Below, one piece after another: positions 1,057-26,132 of a stretch of DNA of 26,132 bases; positions within the stretch are counted from its first letter, which is position 1; every line of letters starts with the position of its first letter. A program made the translations under genes and the position numbers. The DNA comes from Scenedesmus sp. ARA3 (lineage: Eukaryota > Chlorophyta > Chlorophyceae > Sphaeropleales > Scenedesmaceae). The notes beneath the pieces were generated by a model. The model was not told where the DNA came from, made no database searches, and worked only from the letters and a program-made list of their open reading frames with translations. Location: contig RWJK01000148.1 in NCBI GenBank assembly GCA_004335835.1, forward strand, positions 1 to 26,132. The letters are read 5' to 3'.

Positions 1057-3547
1057 AGGCCAAGCTGCTGTGCAGGCTGCTGGATGCTGCCACTGGCATG
1101 GCCTACCTGCACAGCAAGGGCGTGCTGCACGGAGACCTCAAGGCAGGCAATGTGCTGCTGCAGGCCACAGTGCACGGCACCTATGGCCAGGTGCGGCGGC
1201 TGGCGTGCTGCTGGTTGTTTTGCAGCAGCTGTTATGGTTTGCAGCGGGTGTGCTTGGTGCAGTGTACAGAGTTGTGCGGCAGCGTGCCTCATGTTTGGAC
1301 GGCGTGCAGCGTGCTTGGCGAGCCTGGTGGTGCTGGTGTCAGAGGTGATGACTGTCTGTTGGTTATCCCGCTGCTGCTGCTGCTGCTGCTGCAGGTGGCC
1401 AAGATCTCCGACTTTGGCCTGGCAGCCACGCTGCTTGATGGAGCAACGCACCGCAGCACAGCCAGCATGGGCACCATGTGAGCTCAGTTCGGCAGTTTGG
1501 CAGCTTGGCAGCCTCGTTACATCGATCATACAATATTCTGATCGTCGACTTTGCTCACATCATGCGATGTCGACTTTGCTCACACGCTTGCATGCCAATT
1601 AGAGCGCGCGGCGCACTTTCGAATCAAGCTGGCTGTGCTGTTGTGTTGCTACACCAGCGGCTGACATGCTGCTGCCGGCACTCTGCCTGCTGCACCCCTG
1701 TTGTCTCCCTCTGCTGCAGCACCCACATGGCTCCCGAGGTGCTGCGCTCTGGACACATGAGCACAGCAGCTGATGTGTGAGTGCCAGCTGCCCTTGTTTC
1801 TGCTTCATAGCTGCTGCGCTGAGGATGGTTTGCGCTCATTGTCAGTTGTTTCGCATGCAGGTGTCATGCAGCTAGTCGAGCATGCGGAATCCCACGTATC
1901 ATTGCAGTGTGTGCTGCGTTGTGCTTGCGTGTTCAGCAAAGCTTTGGTGCAGTGTGCCGGCTTTTGTGCTCAACCAACTTATGCCCGGACTGACAAGCGC
2001 GTCTTCTGCTGCTGTGATGCTTGCTGCTGCTGCAGGTACTCTTTTGGCATCATGAGTGAGTGCCGGCATGCAGCAGCTGCCGCAGCAGGGGCAGCTACAC
2101 ATGCACGCAAATGACTGCACTTACTCAAGTACTGCCCGCTAGCAGCTGTTGAGCGTGTGTGCTGTGGTGCTAGCGCATCCTCAGCTGCAGTGTGCTTGCA
2201 TGCTGTTGTTCACCTGCGTCTCCTGCGGCGTGCAGCACCTTGCTCACCCCCTGGCGCTCTCAGCTCGCGCTTGTGCTGCTTGCTGCTCCTTGTCACTGAG
2301 CCAAAATCAAACTACTGATCCTTGCTGCTGCTGTACACTTGACTCGCAGTGTGGGAGGTGTACACCAACCAGCAGGCGCACCAGGGGCTGCACTACGGTG
2401 CAGTGGTGGAGCGAGTGGTGGTCCGCGGGGAGCGGCCAAAGGTGATCCCCACTGCCTAGGGCACTGCTGCGGCTCTCAGCAGATGCTGTACCTCACACTG
2501 CCGCAGCTAGTCTGTGGATGTGAAGTATAGAATACTGTAGTCTGGCGGATGAGGCACATCAACATCTCTGTAGCCGGTGATCTTGCCTCTCCACAGCGGG
2601 CCCCGTACACGTCATGCACGCTTACCAACAAGAACGTTGCTGACAGGCCTGCTGCTGTGCTTCTGCCTGCGTTTCTTGTTGCGTGCGGCTGCCTGACTTG
2701 CGTGCTGCTGCAGGTCCCCACGGACATGCCGAACGAGTACTCGCTGCTCATGCGCAGCTGCTGGGATGGGGACGCAGCAAAGCGCCCCAACTTTGCACAG
2801 GTCATCACTTGCCTGGAGCTCCTGCTCGACAACTTGACATCAGACTCTGACGGCCGCATCAGTGAGGGCAGCGAGGGAGCAGCAAGCACCAGCAGCGCCA
2901 GCGGCAAAGGCGGCAACGCCAGCGGCGGCAACGCAAGCAGCGTGAAGATGGAGGACCTGCTCGCCCGCAAGTCAGAGCCAGTGTCAGCAGCAGCGGATGC
3001 GGCGCCGGACTCTGCATGTGGGAAGGACAGCCCCGGCGCTGGCAGCAGCAGCGCAGCGGCTGCGGGTGTTATTGCTGCCGGCAAGCCTGGTGGGCTCCTT
3101 GCCGGCAGCAGCAGCAGCCGGCCGTCGGCTGCGTCAGGCTCTGGCCTCGGCGCTGCTACGCCTGGCACGTCGCAGCTGCTGGAGCAGCGGCAGCAGCAGC
3201 TGCAGATGGTGTCTGTGCCGAGCGGGGGCAAGGCGTTGTCAGAGAGCCTGGCGTCTGGCGCCTCCACATCATCATCGCATGGCATGCTGGGTGCCACTTC
3301 GCTGCTCGGCACAAGCTCCAGGGCCGGTCAAACTGCCGGCACCTGGTCAAGCTCCTTAGGAGGGTCTGGTAGCATGGGGTCGACGCTGGCAGTGCCAGCG
3401 ACGCCGCAGCAGCCGGGCGCGCAGCAGCAGCAGCAGCAGCCGGGCGCGTGGCAGCAGATGCGCAGGCTAGGGTTGCGGCAGGGGCAGCAGCGCGGCAGCA
3501 AAGACGAGGCGGAAGCAGATGGAGGGCAGCTGGTGCAGGACCTGTGA
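1..3547 (+). CDS. Raf-like (TKL-type) protein kinase, 5'-partial, 8 exons in window
   Basis: Exons that join in phase: <1-362, 665-754, 1059-1190, 1395-1477, 1720-1776, 2036-2055, 2350-2441, 2714-3547 (TGA); about 555 residues are visible. The sequence shows the beta5/hinge segment (VWLVLELCTGGTL), the catalytic loop HGDLKAGNVLL (HGD instead of HRD, common in plant and algal Raf-like kinases), DFGLA, THMAPEVL, DVYSFGI followed by MWEVY, and CW...AAKRPNF of subdomain XI. Catalytic Asp, Lys and Asn and the DFG Asp are all present, so the enzyme is probably active on Ser/Thr. The first visible exon (frame from base 3) is a 120-residue Ala/Ser-rich insertion between strands beta4 and beta5; the glycine-rich loop and VAIK lysine must lie before the window. 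About 240 residues of low-complexity Ser/Ala/Gln tail follow the kinase domain. Introns are G+T-rich and several end in CTG runs. Substrate unknown; the family call is firm, the subgroup inferred from motifs. Confidence 0.88.
1021..1053 (+). repeat. (CTG)11 tract at an intron 3' end
   Basis: Eleven perfect CTG units lie 5 bases before the acceptor at 1058/1059, where a polypyrimidine tract would normally be. Similar shorter CTG runs precede the acceptors at 665, 1395 and 2036. Confidence 0.95.
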
Positions 3548-14508: not shown

Positions 14509-17500
14509 CTACAGCAGCGACAGCTCCGCCACGCCGTCATCACTCAGCGCAAGCTGCTCAAACACAGCATCAAGGTTCATGCCGCCAGCTCTGAACGTGT
14601 CAGCCATGGACTCTGCTTTGAATTGCGCCTCCCCGAACATCTCCAGCAGCTCCACGTGCTCAGCCTGCTGCTGCTGCTGCTGCTGCTGCTGTGCGCCGCC
14701 GCCAGCAGCTGCATCCTCGTCATCTGCTGCGAGCTCTGGAAGCTGCCAGAAGAGCCAGTCGCCGTAGCCGATAAAGGTGTCCCGGTTTGCAATGACGCTG
14801 TCATCTTCCAGAGCCGCGCTGGCCACACGCTGACGCATGCGCTGCCAGCACTTGGGGTACTCTGCACATACATACACACAGGAGGTCGAGGTGAATGCAG
14901 GCAGCCAGAGGAAAACAAGGATGCAGCAAGTCGTTGTGAGTGGCTGGCACGGTAGGCAGCGCCAGCACATGCACGGCACGCATAGCCCCAAAGAGTGAGC
15001 TGCGCACAAGGACCACGGACAGCCACCACCCAGCCAGACCACCCAACACATGGTGACGTCCATGCCCCAGTTGTAAAAAAAGTGCAAACACGATCTGCCA
15101 AGTGTTTCACAGTGACCACTCGGAGTGCCAGGAGACTTTGGCGGGGGTTTTCTGGCTCAGCATTGCTTCAAGGTGCGCAGCTGTGCATGACCAGCGTGCT
15201 TCGGCATCCTGGCTTTGTCTAGAGTTCGTCATTTTACAGTTGGCGTGCTGCAGACATCATGGCTCCACCCACCTGGCGCAACTGCAGCTGCTGCAGCATC
15301 GCCCTCTCCAGCAGCAGCTGCATCTGCTGCTACATCTCCAGCCTGATACTGCTGCTGCCCGTCAGCTGCATCTGCGGCAGCAGCTGCTAACGCAACTTCC
15401 GGGTACAGATCATGTCCAGGCCCCAGCTGCTCATTGTCAGCAGCTGCTGCTACCTGCTCATCCACCTCCCAGCCGTCACCATCCCAGCCATCAGCAGCAC
15501 CGCCAATCCCTGCTGCTGCTGCTGCTGCTGCTGCTGGATCAGCTGCACCCGCCGCCGCAGCAGCAGCGCCAGCCGCCTCATCCTCGTGCTCCTGGATGAT
15601 GCGGCTGAGGGCGCTGCTCACGATGTGCCGCGAGGCTGCTGCTGCCGCCTTGGCGGTGTTGGGCTGAGAGCCGCCTGTGCTGCCCGACAGCGACACCCTG
15701 GCTGAGCGCTGCTGCTGCTGCTGCTGCTGCTGCTGTTCGTGATTGTGGCTTTCCTGAGCGAGTGCTGCTGCGCTGCTGTCGGCACTTGGCAAGGCCAGCT
15801 GCTCCGCTGGCACCTCCAAGGCATTAGAAGCAGCAGCATCGGCGTCCCAGGCAGATGCTGCTGCATCAGCTGCGGCTGCTGTGGCAGTATCCAGCTGCTG
15901 CTGCTGCTGCTGCCCCTGCTGCTGCTCGATGCCATCACCCCAGAGGCCAGCAGCAGTGCTTGCAAAAGCAGCCGCTGCTGAGCCGTCAGTTGCAGCATCA
16001 CCATAGGCCACGGCTGCTGCTGGCTGCTGGCTGGCTTGCACATTAGCTGGCATCTGCTCTAGCTCTGAACCCCAACCCTGCAGGTGCTGCTGCTGGTGCT
16101 GCCGCTGCTGGTCGAGCGACTGGCGCTGCTGCTGTTGCGGCTGTTGCTGCATCTGTTCATCCAGCGCAGAGGGCTGCTGTTGCTCATAGCCTTGCTGCTG
16201 TTGCTGCTGCTGGAAGTCTTGCTGCTGATCATACCCCTGCTGGTAGCCCTGCTGCGCGTACCCCTGCTGTGCGTTGTACTCCTGCCACTGAGCATAGTAC
16301 TCTGGAGGGTACTGGTACGCTGCATTGGGATCTGGCTGCACTTCGCCGCCAACGCCAGGGGTGCCATAGTACTGTGCATATTGATGCTGCTGCTGTTCTA
16401 CCTGCCAGTTGCTGCCATCGCCCGCTGCTGCTTCCTGGCCGCTGCCTTCAACCCACATAGATGCGACCTGCTGCTGCTGCTGCTGCTGCTCTGGTGCTGC
16501 TCCAGCGCTGCTGCCGCCCAGGGCATCCGCTGCTGCTGCTGCCGCTGGATCACTGCCGTCTTCCGCTGTTGGTGGCAGCGGCATGAACTTGCTAGTGGGC
16601 GTGGGCTCCTCCCCTGGGCTATGCCCCGCCACAGCATACGCAGCGTCAGCCGTGACAGCACGCGCCGGCGTGCACGGCGGCGCAGCCGCCGCCTGCTGCT
16701 GCTGCTGCTGGTTGTGGTGCTGCTGCCAGTCCGTGTAGTTGCTGGCCTGTGAGAGGCTGGAGTCGCCCGGGCTGGGCGGCGCTGCTGCTGCTGCGCGGCC
16801 TGCTGCTGCGTGGCTGGGCATGTGTGCTGGCTCGCTGGCGCTGGGCTTCATTGAGCCTGCCGGCAGCTTGCGGCGGTGCTCCATCTGGCGATACCAAAAG
16901 GCTGCAGGCGCACGGCACAGCAGATGGCAGCAGAGAGGGGGCAGAGGTCAGCAAACATGCAGCCCCCGCATGGCTAGTGCAGTGGAGACAGTAGGGCATG
17001 GCGATGACAACCGACAACAGAGCGCAGCAATGCCAGCGGGGTCTCATTCAACCCCTCCCTCGAGGGTTGAATGAGAGGGCAGGGACGGAGAACATGAAGC
17101 AGGGCGTGCAACCCTGCCAGTACTATCAACGCTGAAATGCATGTCTGCTGTGTACGGCGTCCTACCAGTACAGTACAAAGTGCAGTAGCAGCATCCTGCC
17201 AGGCAGCTGCACGCTACCACCGGCAACAACAACAGTACTGTGCCTCCACTACTAGAACAAAAACAGCAGCACACCAAAGCAAGCACAGCCGACAGCCTCT
17301 GCCTCCATGAATGCAGCAGCACCGAGTACTTTTCTCACCTTCCCGCTTCTTTGTGGGTGTCAGCGCCTCCTGCGCCTCCTGCTCTCGCGCGCGCTGCATC
17401 TCAAACTCCTCATAAGGCGTCTGCCGGTTCAGCTTCCCGGGCTGCTTGAAGTGCAGCGCACGCCAGTTCGTGTTCACCAGCTGCGTGTTCAAAAACGCAT

Positions 17501-20500
17501 CATATGGGTGCGTGCGCTGCTCATGCCCATGCTGCTGCTGCTGTTGCTGCTGCCATGGCGGCGAGCCAGCGCCGCCTGCCATGCTGCCAGGGCCAAATAA
17601 GCGGTCAGCGCCCTTGCTTGCTGCTGCGTCTGCATCCAGCTGGCGGTGGCCAGCCCCGGGTAGGAGCCCGTTGCCGTTGGCTGCTGCTGCGCCCCCAGCA
17701 CTGCCTGCAGCAGCACCATGCTGATCCAGCATGCGGCCTGCGCCAAACGGCTGGCTGCCAGTGGTGCCCATGTACCCATCCAGCACCATTGGCGCGCCAA
17801 AGGCAGGCCCCTGCATTTCGCCATGCCCACCCACACTGCTGCGCTGCTGCACTGCCCCACCAGCAGCAGCAGCATCCGGCTGCCATGGCGCCAATCCCTC
17901 TGCTGTTGCTGCTGCTGCCCCGCCTGCAGGCGCTGGCACAAAGACCCCCGGCTTGCCCAGCATCTGCGTGGGCGGGCTGGGGATGGGGAAGCCGCTGTCA
18001 CCCCGCGCCAGCGGGCTGCTGCCGCTGCCGCCCTGGTGTCCTGCAAGCGGGCTCACTGACCTGGGTCTAGCATACGGGCTGCTGGGCCGTACCATGGTCA
18101 GCATGCTGGTGTCGCCAGCCACAGCAGGCGCTGGCACAGTCAGCGTGGAGCTCTCCGCGCGCAGCGGCGGCGAGCCGCTGCCGTTGACCGAGGGCCGGTG
18201 CGGCGGCAGCAGCGGGTTCACGCCGGCAGCGCTTACACCCGGTGTGTGCATTGAGTTGCTGCGCACGGGTGGCGCGGACAGATAGCCCCCCGCAGCGCCG
18301 CCAGGCGAGGGAATGCCGCTGCCGTAGCGTGCGGGGTGGGGCGCGCTGCCAGGCGCACTCTGGTGCCGCGCTGCTGCTGCTGCCGACATGCTGCGCTTGG
18401 CTGCTGTGGCGCTGTTGGGGCCCCACAAAGGACCCACCTCATCGCTGCCTTGCTTGTCAAGGGTGGTGCTGATGCCTGGCAGCTCAGGGTGCACTGGATC
18501 CAGCAGCAGCGGCATCTGCTGCTGCTGTTGCTCTGTTGCTGCCAGCTGTTGCTGCGGCTGCATGGCATGCTGCTGCTGATGGTATGCATATTGGCCATAG
18601 CCTGCTGCTGCAGCGGCCGTTGCTGCCCCATCTGCTTCACCTGCAGCGCTATCAGGCAGCAAAGCAGCCGCACTTGCGCTTGTTTCAGGATCAAGCTGCT
18701 GCTGCTGCTGCTGCTGCTGTTCAGTGGACACCTCGCCAGATGCGTAGTACCCACTGCTGTCATACGTGCCGTAGCCATTGGCCATGCCGTAGTACTGCTG
18801 CTGCTGCGCCGCTGCATCCCCACCCTCTGCTGCTACCTGCTGGTATCCCTGCGCGTATGCATTGGCATCATAGCCATACCCCTGCTGCTCCCAGCCACTA
18901 TACTGGTTGTACGCATATCCGTGTGCACCAACATACCCTGCACCGGCGGCAGCAGCAGCATTGCTGTCAGCACCACCTTCTGCATCCATTCCAGCCCAGC
19001 CACCCTCTGCTGCTGCCGCATCTTGAGGAGGGGCGACAGGAACACCAAATGGGTCCTGCGGCTGCCCAAATGGATCCTGCTGCTGCTGCCAGTCACCGTA
19101 GCCACCTGCCTCCCCACCCTCTTCAGCTCCTGCTGCTGGTACACTGCTGGCGGGCTGGGTCGGCCATTCACTGCTGCCGTGCTGCCCTTGTGCTGCTGCA
19201 CCTTCCGGATCAACGCTCTTACCGGCAGCATTGTCGTAAGCACCGCCATTGCTGTATGGCGCATAGCCCACATGGTTACCGTTGCTGCCTGCAGCTGCAT
19301 ATGACAGGTGTCCCGCTGCACCCTGCTGCTGGCCTCCGATGCTGCGCCGCGCAGGCGATTTGACAGCGTTGCTGCCATCGTCAGCAGCATGCGGCGTCCA
19401 AGTTGCAAAGCTGAGGTTGCCAGGCCGTGACAGCTCAGCCATGCTGCCGCCCGCGCTGCTGTCCCGCCCATCCATCGCTTCAGGCTCCTGTGCTGCTATG
19501 CTCCCCATGGACACATCAGCGGCACCGGCTGCAGCCGACTCGCCCTGCCCCTCTGCGGCGCCTGCCTCTGCTGCGCCGCCGCTGCTGCCGCCTGCAGGCG
19601 CCGCAGGCATGAAGAACGACGGCTGCTTGCCGCTCACAGCGCCCCCGGGCACGAATGCGTCCATGGACATGCCCGACTGCGACTGCGACATGCCGCCTGC
19701 AGTGCTGCTGCTGTCGCCCGCGTTGGTGCCAGCTGCTGCTGCCTCGCTGGCTGTGTCTGAGGCTGCAGGCGTGGGCATGAAGAATGAGCCGGGCTTGCTG
19801 GGTCCTGCAGGCAGCCCGGGCACCTTTGGGATGCCAGGCACCAGCCCGCTGCCGCTTGCAGGACCCGAGCCAGGCAGCAGCGCGCTCTTTCCGGAGGGCG
19901 GGCACGAGCTGCTGCCTGTGCCTGAGGGCGGCGGCGGCCCTGCTCCCGGTGTTGCGATGTAGCGGTCTTTCAAGCTGCGGCCCCTGCAAGTTGCAGGAAA
20001 ATGAGTGCACAGCAGGCAAAATGAGCAGGAGCAGGAGCAAGGGCATACGCATCAGGCACAGGGGAGACCAGCAGGCGATGCAGTGGATCAGCGAGCGCCA
20101 GCAGATGGATTGAGGCTGTCCCCTGAATAGAGTTGGACAGCTGCAGCAAACATGCCATCCCCTGCTGCAATCAGAAGTAACATACATGATCTGTTTACTC
20201 TCTGCCATGCTGTGCAGCAGTCCACAGGATCATCATCAGTAGTATAATGACACCTAACAGAAGCTTCACTGCATGGAACAAGGCCACGTGTTGCATACGC
20301 ACCTGGTCCACGCACTGCCTCCTGGCACTGGTGGGATACCTGCTGCTGCCGCGTCTGCTGCTGCTGTGTTCAAAGAGGTGGAGCTGGATGCTGCAGACAT
20401 GGTGCCCACAGATGGTGGAAGAGCGCTGAGCTTTGCCTTCTCTGCACGTGCCTCATCCTCCTTGCCTCGCTCCACCCACATCTTGAACTGCAGTACGAGT

Positions 20501-21242: not shown

Positions 21243-24200
21243 ATGCATACTCTGCAGAAATCCAGTGCTTTGCAGCAGGCTGTGGTGGGCAGTAGGCGTG
21301 GTAGCACAGCTGTTCCGCAGGCATTAGCAGGCCCCCCAGCTTGGGGGCGTGCTGGCAGCAGGCTGCAGACATTCACACCTTCAGCGCCCAGAAGCACGCC
21401 ACAGCTCCAGCATCAGCAGCACACAAAGCCCATGGCCTCACCAGTGGCAGCAGCTGCATCTGGCGGAGCGGCAGCAGCAGCGGAGGGCAACACAGTGTAC
21501 ATCCCCATCAGCGAGCTTAAGGAGCTGTGCACAAAGTCTCTGAGCACGCTGGGCTACAGCACTGAGGAGACTGCAGTGCTGCTGGATGTGAGTACTGCTG
21601 CAGCTGCCCTGCAGTCTGCTGCAGGCAGCCACAACCCTAGTTCCAGCAGAGGTGCCGCAGGCATTGCCTGCTCTGCATGTACATGACTGCTGAGTACAAA
21701 CACGCAGAGTAGTACGAGTGTCAGCTGATATTCATGTGCTGTAGGCTGTCAGCGTGAGCTCAGCAGTCTGATGTGAGTTCAGCTGATTCATCCTGGTAGT
21801 GCATGAGGGCCTGATCAGCTGGAAGTAGGACCCTACTAGCATCAGCAGATATCAATAGAGCAAACAACTGAGTAGCAGCTGGAAGTCAGCTGGGTAGTCA
21901 TGAGACTGCCTGGTATGCCAGCATTGCTGTTGCAGGCAAGCTTGAGCTACTGTGACCCTCCCAGCGTCTCTCAACGGACACCGAGTCACTGCAAGCACAG
22001 ACTATAGGCACACGTTGTGACCTCCTGCTCCCCGCAATCGCCCTCCCAGCCCATCCCAACCAAAGTTACTGCGGTTCTGTGACTATTCTGCTTGCAGGTC
22101 CTGCTGTACGCACAGCTGCGCGGTAACAACCAGGGCATTATCAAGATCACCACCGGCGGCATGAACCGCGCAGCTGCAGCAGCGCCCATCGCAGTCGAGC
22201 GCGAGACGCGCCTGTCCGCGCTGCTCAATGGCAACGCGCAGGCCGGCATGCTGGTGCTGCACCGCGCGATGACCATGGCAGTTGAGAAAGCCAAGTCAGC
22301 AGGCTTTGGCATTGTGGGGACCAACAACACCAGCACATCAACAGGCGCGCTTGGCTACTATGCAGAGCAGGTGGCACAGCAGGGCCTGATTGGCATCGTG
22401 TTTGCGCAGTCGCCCGAGTTTGTGGCGCCGCATGGAGCGAAGCAGGCTATCTTTGGCACCAACCCCATCGCTATCGGCATACCAGCAGAGAAGGTGCGCT
22501 GTCAGATAGATGCAGCAGCAGCAGCAGCAGCAGCGGCAGGGGAGCTCATGAGAGCAGCAGGTGCAGCTGCAAGAGCACTAGCATGCTGGCAGCAGAGCGT
22601 ATAACACAGCAGCAGCTGCGGAACACAGTTTGGCAGCTCTGATGATGACAACAGTACCTGGCCGGGCTGCTCATGCTGCTGGCTGGGCAGCAACTGCCAT
22701 CTCATGCGGCGGCCCTGCAGGCACAGCAGGGCTCAAAACCCATGCAGCACCTTGTTTCATCTTGTGCTACTGGCCCTGGCATGCTTTACACCACAGCACA
22801 CCAGGAGCTGCCAGCGCAGTCTGTCAATACGAGCATGCCTGCCACCTGACACCATGGTCACGTGCTGCCCACATGCCGAGGATCGCAGCTGCGCACGCGG
22901 AGAGAGGCTTGTTACACGAAGAAGGCATCTTACCACCTGAAGGTGCAGAACTTGACCCCAAGGTGTAGAACTCGCCTCACTTTCAGCTCGCCTCACACTG
23001 CAGCTGATGCCTGCCTGCCTCACACACATAATGCTTGCAGGGCCCCGTGGTCATGGACATGGCCACTGCAGCCTATGCCTGGTTTGGTCTGCTGGAGGCC
23101 AAGACTGCGGGCAGGCCCATCCCTGGTGACGTGGCGCTGAATGCACAGGGGCAGCCCACCACTGACCCGAACGAAGTGCTGTCAGGCGGGGCCATCCGCG
23201 TGTTTGACAGGTGAGGCGCCTCCGGCTGTGCTTGCGTGCACTAGGCTAGGCCGCCAGCTTGCGTGATCGAGACCATAGGCATAGGATGCCGGGAGATGCT
23301 GCCATGCTTTGCGCTGATCACCTGCGGCCTCCACTGCGCTACAGCTTCCACTGTTGCGCTGACGCTGTTGTTGCTGTGCTGCTCCTGCTCCTGCAGGAGC
23401 CACAAGGGTAGCAACCTGGCGCTGATGGTGGAGCTGCTGGCGGGCCCGCTGGTGGGCGCTGCTGTTGCCGACAAGCTGGAGCAGCGCAACTGGGGCAACC
23501 TGCTGCTGGCAGTCGACCCGGAGCTGCTGGGCGACGCGGAGAGCATCCGCGCACGCACACAGGTGGGTAGTTGGTTCAGCGGGCGGGGTGAGGGTTGCTG
23601 GCTGCTGACGTTGCTGCTGGCAGTTGACCTGATGTTTCTGGCACCAACATGCGCCTACCGCCCCTGCTTCTCGCGTGCGGTGCTGCAGGTGGTGCTGGAC
23701 CGCGTGAAGGGCACAGAGCGGCTGCCTGGCGTGGACGAGATCCTGCTGCCCTGCTTGTTACTAACATGTCATTTTGTGGCACGCTCCTGCAGGTGGTGCT
23801 GGACCGCATGAAGGGCACAGAGCGGCTGCCTGGCTTGGAAGACATCCTGCTGCCCTGCTTGTTACTAAACATGTCATTTTGTGGCACGCTGCTGCAGGTG
23901 GTGCTGGACCGCGTGAAGGGTGCGGAGCGGCTGCCTGGCTTGGAAGTCATCCTGCTGCCCTGCTTGTTACTAACATGTCATTTTGTGACGCGCTGCTGCA
24001 GGTGGTGCTGGACCGCGTGAAGGGCGCAGAGCGGCTGCCTGGCGTGGACGAGATCCTGCTGCCCAGCGAGCGCGGCAACAGGGTGGCAGCGCAGCGCGCC
24101 AGCAGCGGCATGGTGCCGATTGAGGCCAACCTGTACCACAACCTCAAGGTGTGCTGCGTGTGTGAGCTATGCAAGCAGTGGTGGAGGAAGTTTGCGTTTG

Positions 24201-26132
24201 GTATGTGTGGGTCCGACTTGGATTTTGTGGGGTTGGATGTTGCTCGGAAGTGATCACCTCATCAGCAAACCTATATTGTCAAATTGGCTTGAGATCACAT
24301 ATCATGCTCGCACCTCTGCGCTGGATGGCTGCATTGCAGGTCATGGCCTCCAAGGCAGACGCAGGCAGCGCTGGCAAGCCAGCAGCAGCAGGCGCATCCT
24401 CCTCCAAGATAAAGCTGGAGACGCTGCTGCTGCACCCTGCAGCCAGCTCAGTCACAGACCCGTATGATGCAAGCGGGCCGCCGCTGTACCAGACCGCCAC
24501 CTTTGGCCAGCCGAGTGCCACTGAGGGTGGCCAGTTTGACTACACGCGCAGCGGCAACCCCACACGCACCATGCTCGAAGAGCAGGTGGGGATGCGGCTA
24601 TGTGGTTCTCTTGTTCCTCAAGCCATCAGTTCTTGATGCACCCTGTTACGCGTGGTTGCTGTGAGTGATGATATTCAGCCGTGCCTTGCATGCTTCCAGC
24701 GCGATTGCACGACCACCTCTGTCTCACGCACTTGCCGTGCTGCTGCTGCTGCTGCTGCTTCCGCTGCTGCTGCTGCCGCAGTGGGCGGCACTGGAGGGCG
24801 GCTGCCGGGCGCTGGCCTTCACCTCCGGCATGGCCTCCCTGGCAGTTGTCACCAAGCTGGTGTCGGTTGGCGGCCACATTGTGGCTGGCGATGACATCTA
24901 TGGCGGCACCAGCCGCCTGCTGGCGTCTGTGGTGCCTGCAGGGGGTGTGAGCGTGAGCAACGTGGACATGACAGACATCAGGTGAGTTGTTGGCAGGGAA
25001 AGATTGCATTTTGCATGTGAGAGCGCATGTAAGCGTGCAAGCGAAGGGGGTCGGCGAATGATGTATCCAATTAAGATAGTGACAAACATGAATTTGTGGC
25101 AAAGGTGGCAGGGTGGGCCACGTGTTGACGGAGCTCATGGTGCGGCAAGCTGCATGTGTCCAGCTTGCAGCCTGCTTGGACAGCTCGCCAGCGAGGCAGC
25201 ATACATTGCGCAAGTGGGCTGTAATTGTTGCTGGAATTATGGTTGTGGCGCCTGCAGGCTGACCTGGCTGGCTGGCTAGCAGCAGTGGCCCGCCCTTAAT
25301 CTTGGAGACCAGATCACTTTGTTGAACTCACAATGCACTGTGCCTGTTGCTGCTGCTGCTGCTGCAGTGCTGTGAAGGCTGCCATCATCCCTGGCAAGAC
25401 GCAGCTGGTGATGGTGGAGTCGCCAACCAACCCACGCATGCAGGTGCGGCTGCTGCTGCCTCGGCAGCCCAGCAAATTTGTGTTTGACGTGTCCCGTGCT
25501 TGGCGCCCTGTTTCCGTCGGCAAAGCATGCGTCTTTGTGCATAAGACGGACTATATAAACATGTAGCAAGGCTGGCACCGCCATCGCACAGATCACACGC
25601 GGGCTTCACACCCTCTGCTTGCAGCCGCATGGCGCAGCAGCACCACCTCTTGACCCTCACTCATCTTCTGGCTTATCGTTCTCCGAACCATCCTTGGTCA
25701 ACCAACCATGCAGATCTGCGACATCAAGGCCATAGCAGCAGCAGCACACGCCGCAGGCGCGCTGGTGTGCGTGGACAACTCGTTCCTGACACCACTCTAC
25801 CAGCGGCCGTTAGATCTGGGTGCTGACATCAGCATGACATCTGGCACAAAGTATGTTGGCGGCCACGGGGACACCACGCTGGGCCTGCTGGCAGTGAGGG
25901 ATGCGGAGCTCGGGAAGAAGCTGTACTTCCTGCAGAATGCGGAGGGCGCAGGGCTGGCGCCGATGGACTGCTGGCTGGCGCTGCGCGGGCTCAAGACGGT
26001 GAGGCAGTATGGCATGGGTTTGGGTTGCGCCTTGTGTGTGTGTGAGGGAGCGCGTGGTGAGGGCTGATGACTGCGTCTCTGTGTCTGTGATGCGGCTGGC
26101 TGGCGCTGCGGGGGCTCAACACGGTGAGGCTG
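21243..26132 (+). CDS. Ldh_2-family oxidoreductase fused to cystathionine beta-lyase, 3'-partial, 9 exons in window
   Basis: Exons: 21243-21587, 22098-22493, 23041-23210, 23397-23562, 24002-24148, 24340-24585, 24782-24981, 25368-25443, 25714-25998; the gene continues past the window. All junctions are in phase, about 677 residues so far. Residues 1 to about 80 are Ser/Ala/Arg/Gln-rich with few acids, like a plastid transit peptide (a longer start at 21156 is possible). About 81-408 are a full Ldh_2 domain (malate/lactate/ureidoglycolate dehydrogenase superfamily): LLYAQLRGNNQG, GALGYYAEQ, FGTNPIAIGIP, VMDMAT, QPTTDPNEVLSGG and HKGSNLALMVELLAG. From about 409 it is cystathionine beta-lyase: PPLYQTATF, DYTRSGNPTR, FTSGMAS, VAGDDIYGG, VESPTNPR, VDNSFLTP and SGTKYVGGHGD with the PLP lysine. 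That enzyme splits cystathionine into homocysteine, pyruvate and ammonia in plastid methionine synthesis. The 191-bp intron between the domains holds no TGTAA and no evident promoter. Confidence 0.85.
23689..24065 (+). repeat. 104-bp tandem duplication of a splice acceptor and exon start, four copies
   Basis: The segment GTGGTGCTGGACCGC and its continuation, encoding VVLDRxKGxERLPG, starts at 23689, 23793, 23898 and 24002 (spacing 104, 105 and 104 bp). Each unit also holds the intron 3' end: a branch-point-like TTACTAAC (before copies 2-4), a T-rich stretch and TGCAG. Only copy 4 runs on into the rest of exon 5 without a stop. Confidence 0.95.
24340..26132 (+). other. CBL: Cystathionine beta-lyase domain of the fusion gene (partial)
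   Basis: About 269 residues of a Cys/Met-metabolism PLP enzyme, in exons 24340-24585, 24782-24981, 25368-25443 and 25714-25998. The closest subfamily is plant cystathionine beta-lyase, shown by YFLQNAEGAGLAPMDCWLALRG and the N-terminal LLHPAASSVTDPYDASGPPL region. It lacks a transit peptide of its own, which fits its place behind the Ldh_2 domain. If it were a separate gene it could start at ATG 24304 or 24343. The C-terminal third is beyond the window. Confidence 0.85.
25971..26129 (+). repeat. Duplicated exon end with splice donor
   Basis: CTGGCTGGCGCTGCGCGGGC at 25971, running through CTCAAGACG and the donor GTGAGG (25999), recurs from 26096 with about three differences and again ends in GTGAGG. 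The copy is cut by the window end. Confidence 0.85.

Follow-up and report, generated by a model that had tools for sequence, protein, structure and literature searches.

The stretch of DNA from the green alga Scenedesmus sp. ARA3 analysed here (the window: 26132 bases, the complete contig C82 of an assembly of 87.3 Mb in 1567 contigs) carries a gene that joins a domain of the Ldh_2 oxidoreductase family to cystathionine beta-lyase (CBL), and our sequence comparisons confirm that this is one gene encoding one protein. The gene has nine exons on the forward strand between 21243 and 25998, which together specify a stop-free product of 677 residues with the phase unbroken throughout, and each of its introns begins with GT and ends with CAG. 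Exon 1 (21243-21587) holds the first in-frame ATG, a presequence-like N-terminus (approximately residues 1-82) and the start of the Ldh_2 domain; exon 2 (22098-22493) encodes the core of that domain with two remodelled active-site loops; and exons 3 (23041-23210), 4 (23397-23562) and 5 (24002-24148) carry the domain to its end at NLYHNLK. The two domains are separated by a phase 0 junction intron of 191 bp (24149-24339), after which exon 6 (24340-24585) encodes a linker and then the start of the CBL domain (VMASKAD), which is continued by exons 7 (24782-24981), 8 (25368-25443) and 9 (25714-25998). In Pfam, residues 88-408 match Ldh_2 (PF02615) over profile positions 2-333 of 333 (E 5.3e-84), a complete domain, and residues 436-677 match Cys_Met_Meta_PP (PF01053) over positions 2-247 of 381 (E 1e-80), the first two thirds of one. 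The contig breaks inside the CBL part and the gene runs off the end of the window; the last third of CBL is found on a second contig, C518.

The fusion is seen uninterrupted in P0001, an intron-free open reading frame (ORF) of 825 residues with 99% identity over 91% of the query, which comes from a near-identical alga rather than from reads of Scenedesmus sp. ARA3 itself. P0001 was found on 8 contigs, none longer than 3424 bases; it lacks the junction intron and reads straight through the junction (...ANLYHNLKVMASKADAG..., NLYHNLK-VMASKAD). Its genomic counterpart, window 21432-26001 together with C518 464-1344 (where P0001 residues 615-681 and 666-825 align at 464-664 and 865-1344), contains introns, and P0001 must thus stem from spliced RNA or from a processed copy. 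Both domains are also present in P0003, which bears a transcript-assembly name (GHRR01021013.1, "ORF type:complete"). One could instead suppose that two genes lie side by side, with the Ldh_2 gene ending past 24148 and the CBL gene beginning at the ATG at 24343. A public Scenedesmus model of 500 residues (P0073) starts at the matching Met, and unspliced read-through from exon 5 meets a stop codon at 24251-24253, as this arrangement would have it. We rejected it as very improbable given P0001, which spans the junction, and given that many genera have fused proteins or fused transcript models; the junction intron also lacks TGTAA. On the forward strand past base 20000 this motif occurs just at 25028 and 25220, both within the intron at 24982-25367, and a scan of 24149-24339 found none. 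The same fused relatives, spread across green algae, rule out a fusion private to Scenedesmus sp. ARA3. A preliminary description of this DNA had proposed a single fusion gene at 21243..26132 whose 191-bp junction intron has normal splice sites and no TGTAA; the single gene, the intron coordinates and the missing motif all held, as did the start and the exons within the window, and only the end of the gene had to be moved, to C518.

The CBL half has its key residues intact and is most likely active. The curated TIGR01329 cut-off of 487.5 is passed by full-length P0001 (491.8), which bears out the earlier naming of this half as CBL, and likewise by a Gonium protein (P0009, 513.5) and a Mesostigma-tagged one (P0043, 507.5); the partial protein of the window scores 307.3. 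The residues Tyr127, Arg129, Tyr181, Ser275 and Lys278 of Arabidopsis CBL, which we take to serve in the active site, are all kept. The codon at 25849-25851 (forward strand) aligns to Lys278, presumably the lysine that binds pyridoxal 5'-phosphate (PLP). Four of the 15 site positions compared differ (Tyr125 to Phe, Ile256 to Phe, Ala276 to Gly and Met287 to Thr). The best structural match is the plastid CBL of Arabidopsis (PDB 1ibj), to which 138 of 232 residues are identical over the CBL part in the window, with the PLP lysine and the substrate-site positions retained. This match is confined to the CBL half: the algal protein has 408 extra residues in front, and P0001 adds a predicted C-terminal helix at residues 787-818. 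The helix motif is present in 60 of the 73 fused tails in which the CBL end is present (shuffled mean 0.3, most 3), but we dropped it as a hallmark of the fusion since 6 of 24 CBL-only proteins also carry it; it occurs in CBL-only proteins of Coccomyxa, Elliptochloris, Pedinophyceae and Pavlovales, and not in the Ostreococcus CBL. A similar, coiled-coil-like C-terminal tail was noticed in 21 of 29 hand-picked haptophyte-like solo Ldh_2 proteins, among them P0113 and P0131.

The active site of the Ldh_2 half is remodelled. Structural alignment of the whole fusion returned 50 rows that were all CBL-type folds, this one domain having filled the list, and we therefore compared the Ldh_2 half through a solo relative, P0121. 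Sequence profile and fold (the latter checked on P0121) both place it in Ldh_2. Loop 1 (22119-22145, forward strand; residues 123-131) reads R-G-N-N-Q-G-I-I-K where classical Ldh_2 enzymes have xGxxSHGxxR, and is one residue shorter, with Gln127 in place of His44 and Lys131 in place of Arg48. Loop 2 (22320-22346, forward strand; residues 190-198) reads T-N-N-T-S-T-S-T-G at the site of His116 in classical enzymes; it is one residue longer and contains no His, which is replaced by Ser/Thr. These are the differences from AllD (4fju), SLDH (2x06) and DpkA (1wtj). We aligned the loops of 219 full-length rows (59 fused, 34 solo eukaryotic, 74 from prokaryotic loci and 52 others), leaving out 50 partial rows. 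His116 is present in none of the 219 and His44 in a single one (P0055); the 50 partial rows show neither the classical second-loop motif nor an SHG within the domain. Arg48 is Lys throughout the solo eukaryotic rows (34 of 34) and the others (52 of 52), in 57 of the 59 fused rows and in 74 of 74 prokaryotic loci, the last having been found by patterns built from loop 1.

The cofactor site, by comparison, is kept. Thr156 (57), Pro158 (59), Asp174 (58), Lys224 (58) and Gly306 (55) are conserved among the 59 fused rows, position 306 being Ser in the window protein. An Arg occupies the position of AllD Asp308 and of the arginines that bind the 2'-phosphate in DpkA, which suggests a preference for NADPH. 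The Ldh_2 half of the window reaches no Ldh_2 equivalog cut-off (best score, L-sulfolactate dehydrogenase, 214.5 against 500; ureidoglycolate dehydrogenase, 155.5 against 496.2). Judged by its sequence, the fusion is a CBL by membership and an Ldh_2 fold by membership, and is not one of the histidine-type Ldh_2 2-hydroxyacid dehydrogenases (AllD, SLDH, MDH), with which it shares the cofactor residues but not His44, His116 or Arg48. In an excerpt of the AllD study, both histidines are called invariant in the Ldh_2 family, and mutagenesis is reported to have shown that AllD needs Arg48 and His116 (PMC3527362). The preliminary description had this half reducing 2-oxo acids or ketimines as Ldh_2 enzymes do, and the replacement of these residues tells against that; in particular, the remodelled loops weaken the case for classical 2-oxo-acid reduction.

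We next consider how widely the two domains occur together. Among the proteins most similar to the fusion, PF02615 and PF01053 occur together in 81 of the 120 best hits listed (514 passed the threshold), across green algae. The fused sources include Raphidocelis, Gonium, Astrephomene, Volvox africanus, Haematococcus, Chlamydomonas incerta (P0013), Cymbomonas, Myrmecia, Trebouxia, Coccomyxa elongata, Apatococcus, Pseudoscourfieldia and taxid 582737, which is Tetraselmis sp. GSL018; JGI tags that we read as Ulva, Tetraselmis and Mesostigma add to these. For the Ldh_2 domain we built a quick tree, with no bootstrap, of 121 domains after near-copies had been dropped by hand (38 of the 59 fused rows, 27 of the 34 solo eukaryotic, 48 of the 74 prokaryotic loci and 8 of the 52 further hits). 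On it the fused state takes 3 changes (mean after shuffling, 32.7), of which starred branches force only 1. One fusion followed by two separations fits this tree, the counts being blind to gain versus loss. Nine solo rows have eight fused ones as neighbours (support 94), and 12 further solo rows form a haptophyte-like clade among fused rows (support 84), one of the 12 being Haptolina brevifila by its taxid.

For the CBL domain we used a tree of 77 hand-picked rows, 42 fused and 35 CBL-only. The label changes 14 times, with at least 7 changes forced by starred branches (shuffled mean 25.9), which implies that the Ldh_2 half was lost, or that CBL-only models are truncated, many times. Two CBL models without the Ldh_2 half, P0073 (Scenedesmus) and P0095 (Volvox carteri, "partial"), have close relatives that possess it, and are probably truncated gene models. 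The CBL of Ostreococcus tauri (P0220) is solo and falls in a starred group of 5 within a starred group that holds 7 fused rows. The neighbouring solo Ldh_2 rows may come from the same algae as solo CBLs of this Ostreococcus type.

What might the Ldh_2 half do? We tentatively favour, with a probability of about 0.37, a working NADPH reductase placed beside CBL, with the product that CBL releases as the leading candidate for its substrate. CBL releases homocysteine together with an aminoacrylate/imine, and the latter becomes pyruvate and ammonia. The fusion would then be a two-headed plastid protein, in which the lyase makes homocysteine while the adjoining Ldh_2 half reduces a small 2-imino or 2-oxo acid at the expense of NADPH. 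As a matter of chemical reasoning, a protonated imine could take a hydride without an acid residue, and a histidine-free site would for this reason suit the conversion of 2-iminopropanoate to alanine better than the reduction of a keto acid. Within the superfamily, DpkA is reported to reduce imines and to make N-methylalanine from pyruvate and methylamine (excerpt of PMC6110843). If an imine is captured in this way, nitrogen would be saved and other PLP enzymes would be spared. The N-terminal extension makes a plastid location plausible: its roughly 82 residues ahead of the Ldh_2 domain are rich in Ala, Gln and Ser and include one acidic residue. Since P0001 begins at a Met that matches residue 64, the presequence-like residues 1-63 are seen in the window only. 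On this proposal the Ldh_2 half would be catalytic, would act on a substrate of this kind and might be coupled to CBL, for instance by channelling. A more specific version, in which the first half of an ancient plastid fusion is a new histidine-free class of Ldh_2 fold that captures the reactive 2-imino acid of CBL as alanine with NADPH, or else controls methionine synthesis according to plastid NADPH, is unlikely.

A number of observations weigh against a reductase that serves CBL, and some of them lend themselves to a different account, in which the Ldh_2 half is an active reductase on a substrate unrelated to CBL and the fusion fixes only equal amounts and a shared compartment. We regard this account as possible, if doubtful. 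In its favour, the clade reaches beyond the fusion, with Ldh_2 relatives that stand alone in many bacteria and archaea and, among eukaryotes, in brown algae, Chromera and a haptophyte; those with "RGNNQG" (from Chloroflexota, Thermodesulfobacteriota, Patescibacteria, DPANN-type archaea, brown algae and haptophytes) have the same remodelled loops and 41-59% identity to the domain of the window, yet are not joined to CBL. Conversely, CBL without Ldh_2 is found among the proteins listed from Chlorella, Micractinium, land plants, Bryopsis and Ostreobium, and from what we read by its tag as Prasinoderma, so that CBL seems able to do without the Ldh_2 domain; most of these CBL-only proteins were drawn from those at most 1.75 times as long as the 441-residue query (about 770 residues). 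The halves are also separate in a part of both trees that we take to be Mamiellales-like, as in the Ostreococcus tauri CBL, and the solo Ldh_2 rows beside fused ones each have, by eye, a presequence-like N-terminus of their own. Moreover, the predicted model of the fusion has a predicted template modelling score (pTM) of 0.51 and for that reason shows no contact between the domains. Against an unrelated substrate, the fusion persists from Mesostigma-tagged and prasinophyte proteins to Volvox, which suggests that proximity to CBL matters, or else reflects chance retention.

The genomic contexts of the prokaryotic relatives speak to the same question. We examined 80 loci of the 92 relatives found, with ORFs called by a crude script, and listed 59 same-strand neighbours (at least 150 residues long and within 120 bases), 7 of which were run through Pfam. 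Of the 830 ORFs in these loci, none shows a resemblance to CBL at E 1, a further point against a role tied to CBL. In 2 of the 80 loci an Ldh_2 of this type immediately precedes a D-serine-dehydratase-like PLP enzyme (one cluster), and one aminotransferase was also seen; at just 2 loci, adjacency to PLP enzymes is a weak hint and likewise counts against a link to CBL. The neighbours are otherwise mixed, and we rejected reading function off them for this reason; two blocks recur, one DUF4432/transporter-like (5 loci) and one, in Chloroflexi, that includes a sugar-isomerase-like gene (25 loci). Some neighbours belong to the sugar-isomerase-like AP_endonuc_2 type, to DUF4432 or to the D-2-hydroxyacid dehydrogenases, which is at least in keeping with a substrate unrelated to CBL. 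At the five loci L024, L038, L041, L047 and L054, the histidine-less Ldh_2 lies just downstream of a DUF4432 gene of one cluster, with transporter-like genes upstream; the DUF4432 assignment comes from Pfam on the L024 member, and at L047 another ORF call intervenes.

The loss of both histidines and Arg48 could also mean that there is no catalysis at all. The Ldh_2 half would then bind NADPH without catalysis or play a structural part, sensing the redox state of the plastid or keeping the enzyme assembled, and would in this way adjust CBL and with it methionine synthesis. We judge this improbable, but it accounts for the replacement of the family-invariant histidines and Arg48 while the cofactor positions are kept. 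It also accounts for one fused algal lineage in which loop 1 has decayed further, past the NNQ...K pattern: P0055 (RNNEHGV) and P0075 (RDNEAGV) both lack the Lys, and P0076, P0078 and P0079 have RGSSSGL, RGNGSGL and RGNTSGG. The fusion persists in this lineage, as if the half were kept without catalysis, and this led us to shift a small share of probability (0.03) from our best explanation to the non-catalytic one. On the other side, stand-alone prokaryotic proteins that have no CBL as a neighbour conserve the same histidine-less sequence, and outside the decayed lineage the loops hardly vary, as one would expect if the site were catalytic.

Whichever role applies, the homocysteine-making step for methionine in many green algae appears to be half of a two-domain protein, whereas plants use a stand-alone enzyme. 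Public databases already show the two domains together, and several of the proteins are named there cystathionine beta-lyase or cysteine-S-conjugate beta-lyase, names that mention the CBL half only. We found no description of the fusion in the listed titles and abstract beginnings of open-licence PubMed Central literature, and the words "fusion" and "lactate" do not occur in PMC4523565. The clade of the Ldh_2 half, which spans bacteria, archaea and algae, lacks residues regarded as necessary in its family, and so may either achieve catalysis in a new way or serve as a partner that binds the cofactor. Because Chlamydomonas incerta (P0013) carries the fusion, these ideas can be tested in laboratory algae.

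Some features of the locus remain to be described. Part of the end of exon 9 recurs at window 25960-26132, and a similar stretch opens contig C518, whose bases 2-37 match window 25973-26008 at 97%; the assembly break seems to be located at this repeat. Ldh_2 matches in the assembly are confined to C82 (3 of 3) and PF01053 matches to C82 and C518 (5 of 5), counts that are lower bounds. All of the PF01053 matches found are exons of the fusion gene, and a search of the genome for a separate cystathionine gamma-synthase returned these CBL exons only. A tandem array at 23681-24064 on the forward strand (period 104, 3.7 near-identical copies in Tandem Repeats Finder) repeats a CAG acceptor and the first codons of exon 5 in each copy, with the branch-point-like TTACTAAC between copies. 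Only the last copy, which the P0001 protein matches, leads on into the rest of exon 5, and the earlier acceptors would consequently yield truncated products. The junction sequence had no match among plasmids, and none of five long ORFs elsewhere in the window matched Pfam. An open frame at 2531-3544 (forward strand), for which Pfam gave no match, contains a SCWDGDAAKRPNF stretch that we take to be kinase-like. Upstream of the fusion gene, on the opposite strand, 17217-20051 holds an open frame of 945 residues rich in Ala, Gly and Ser.

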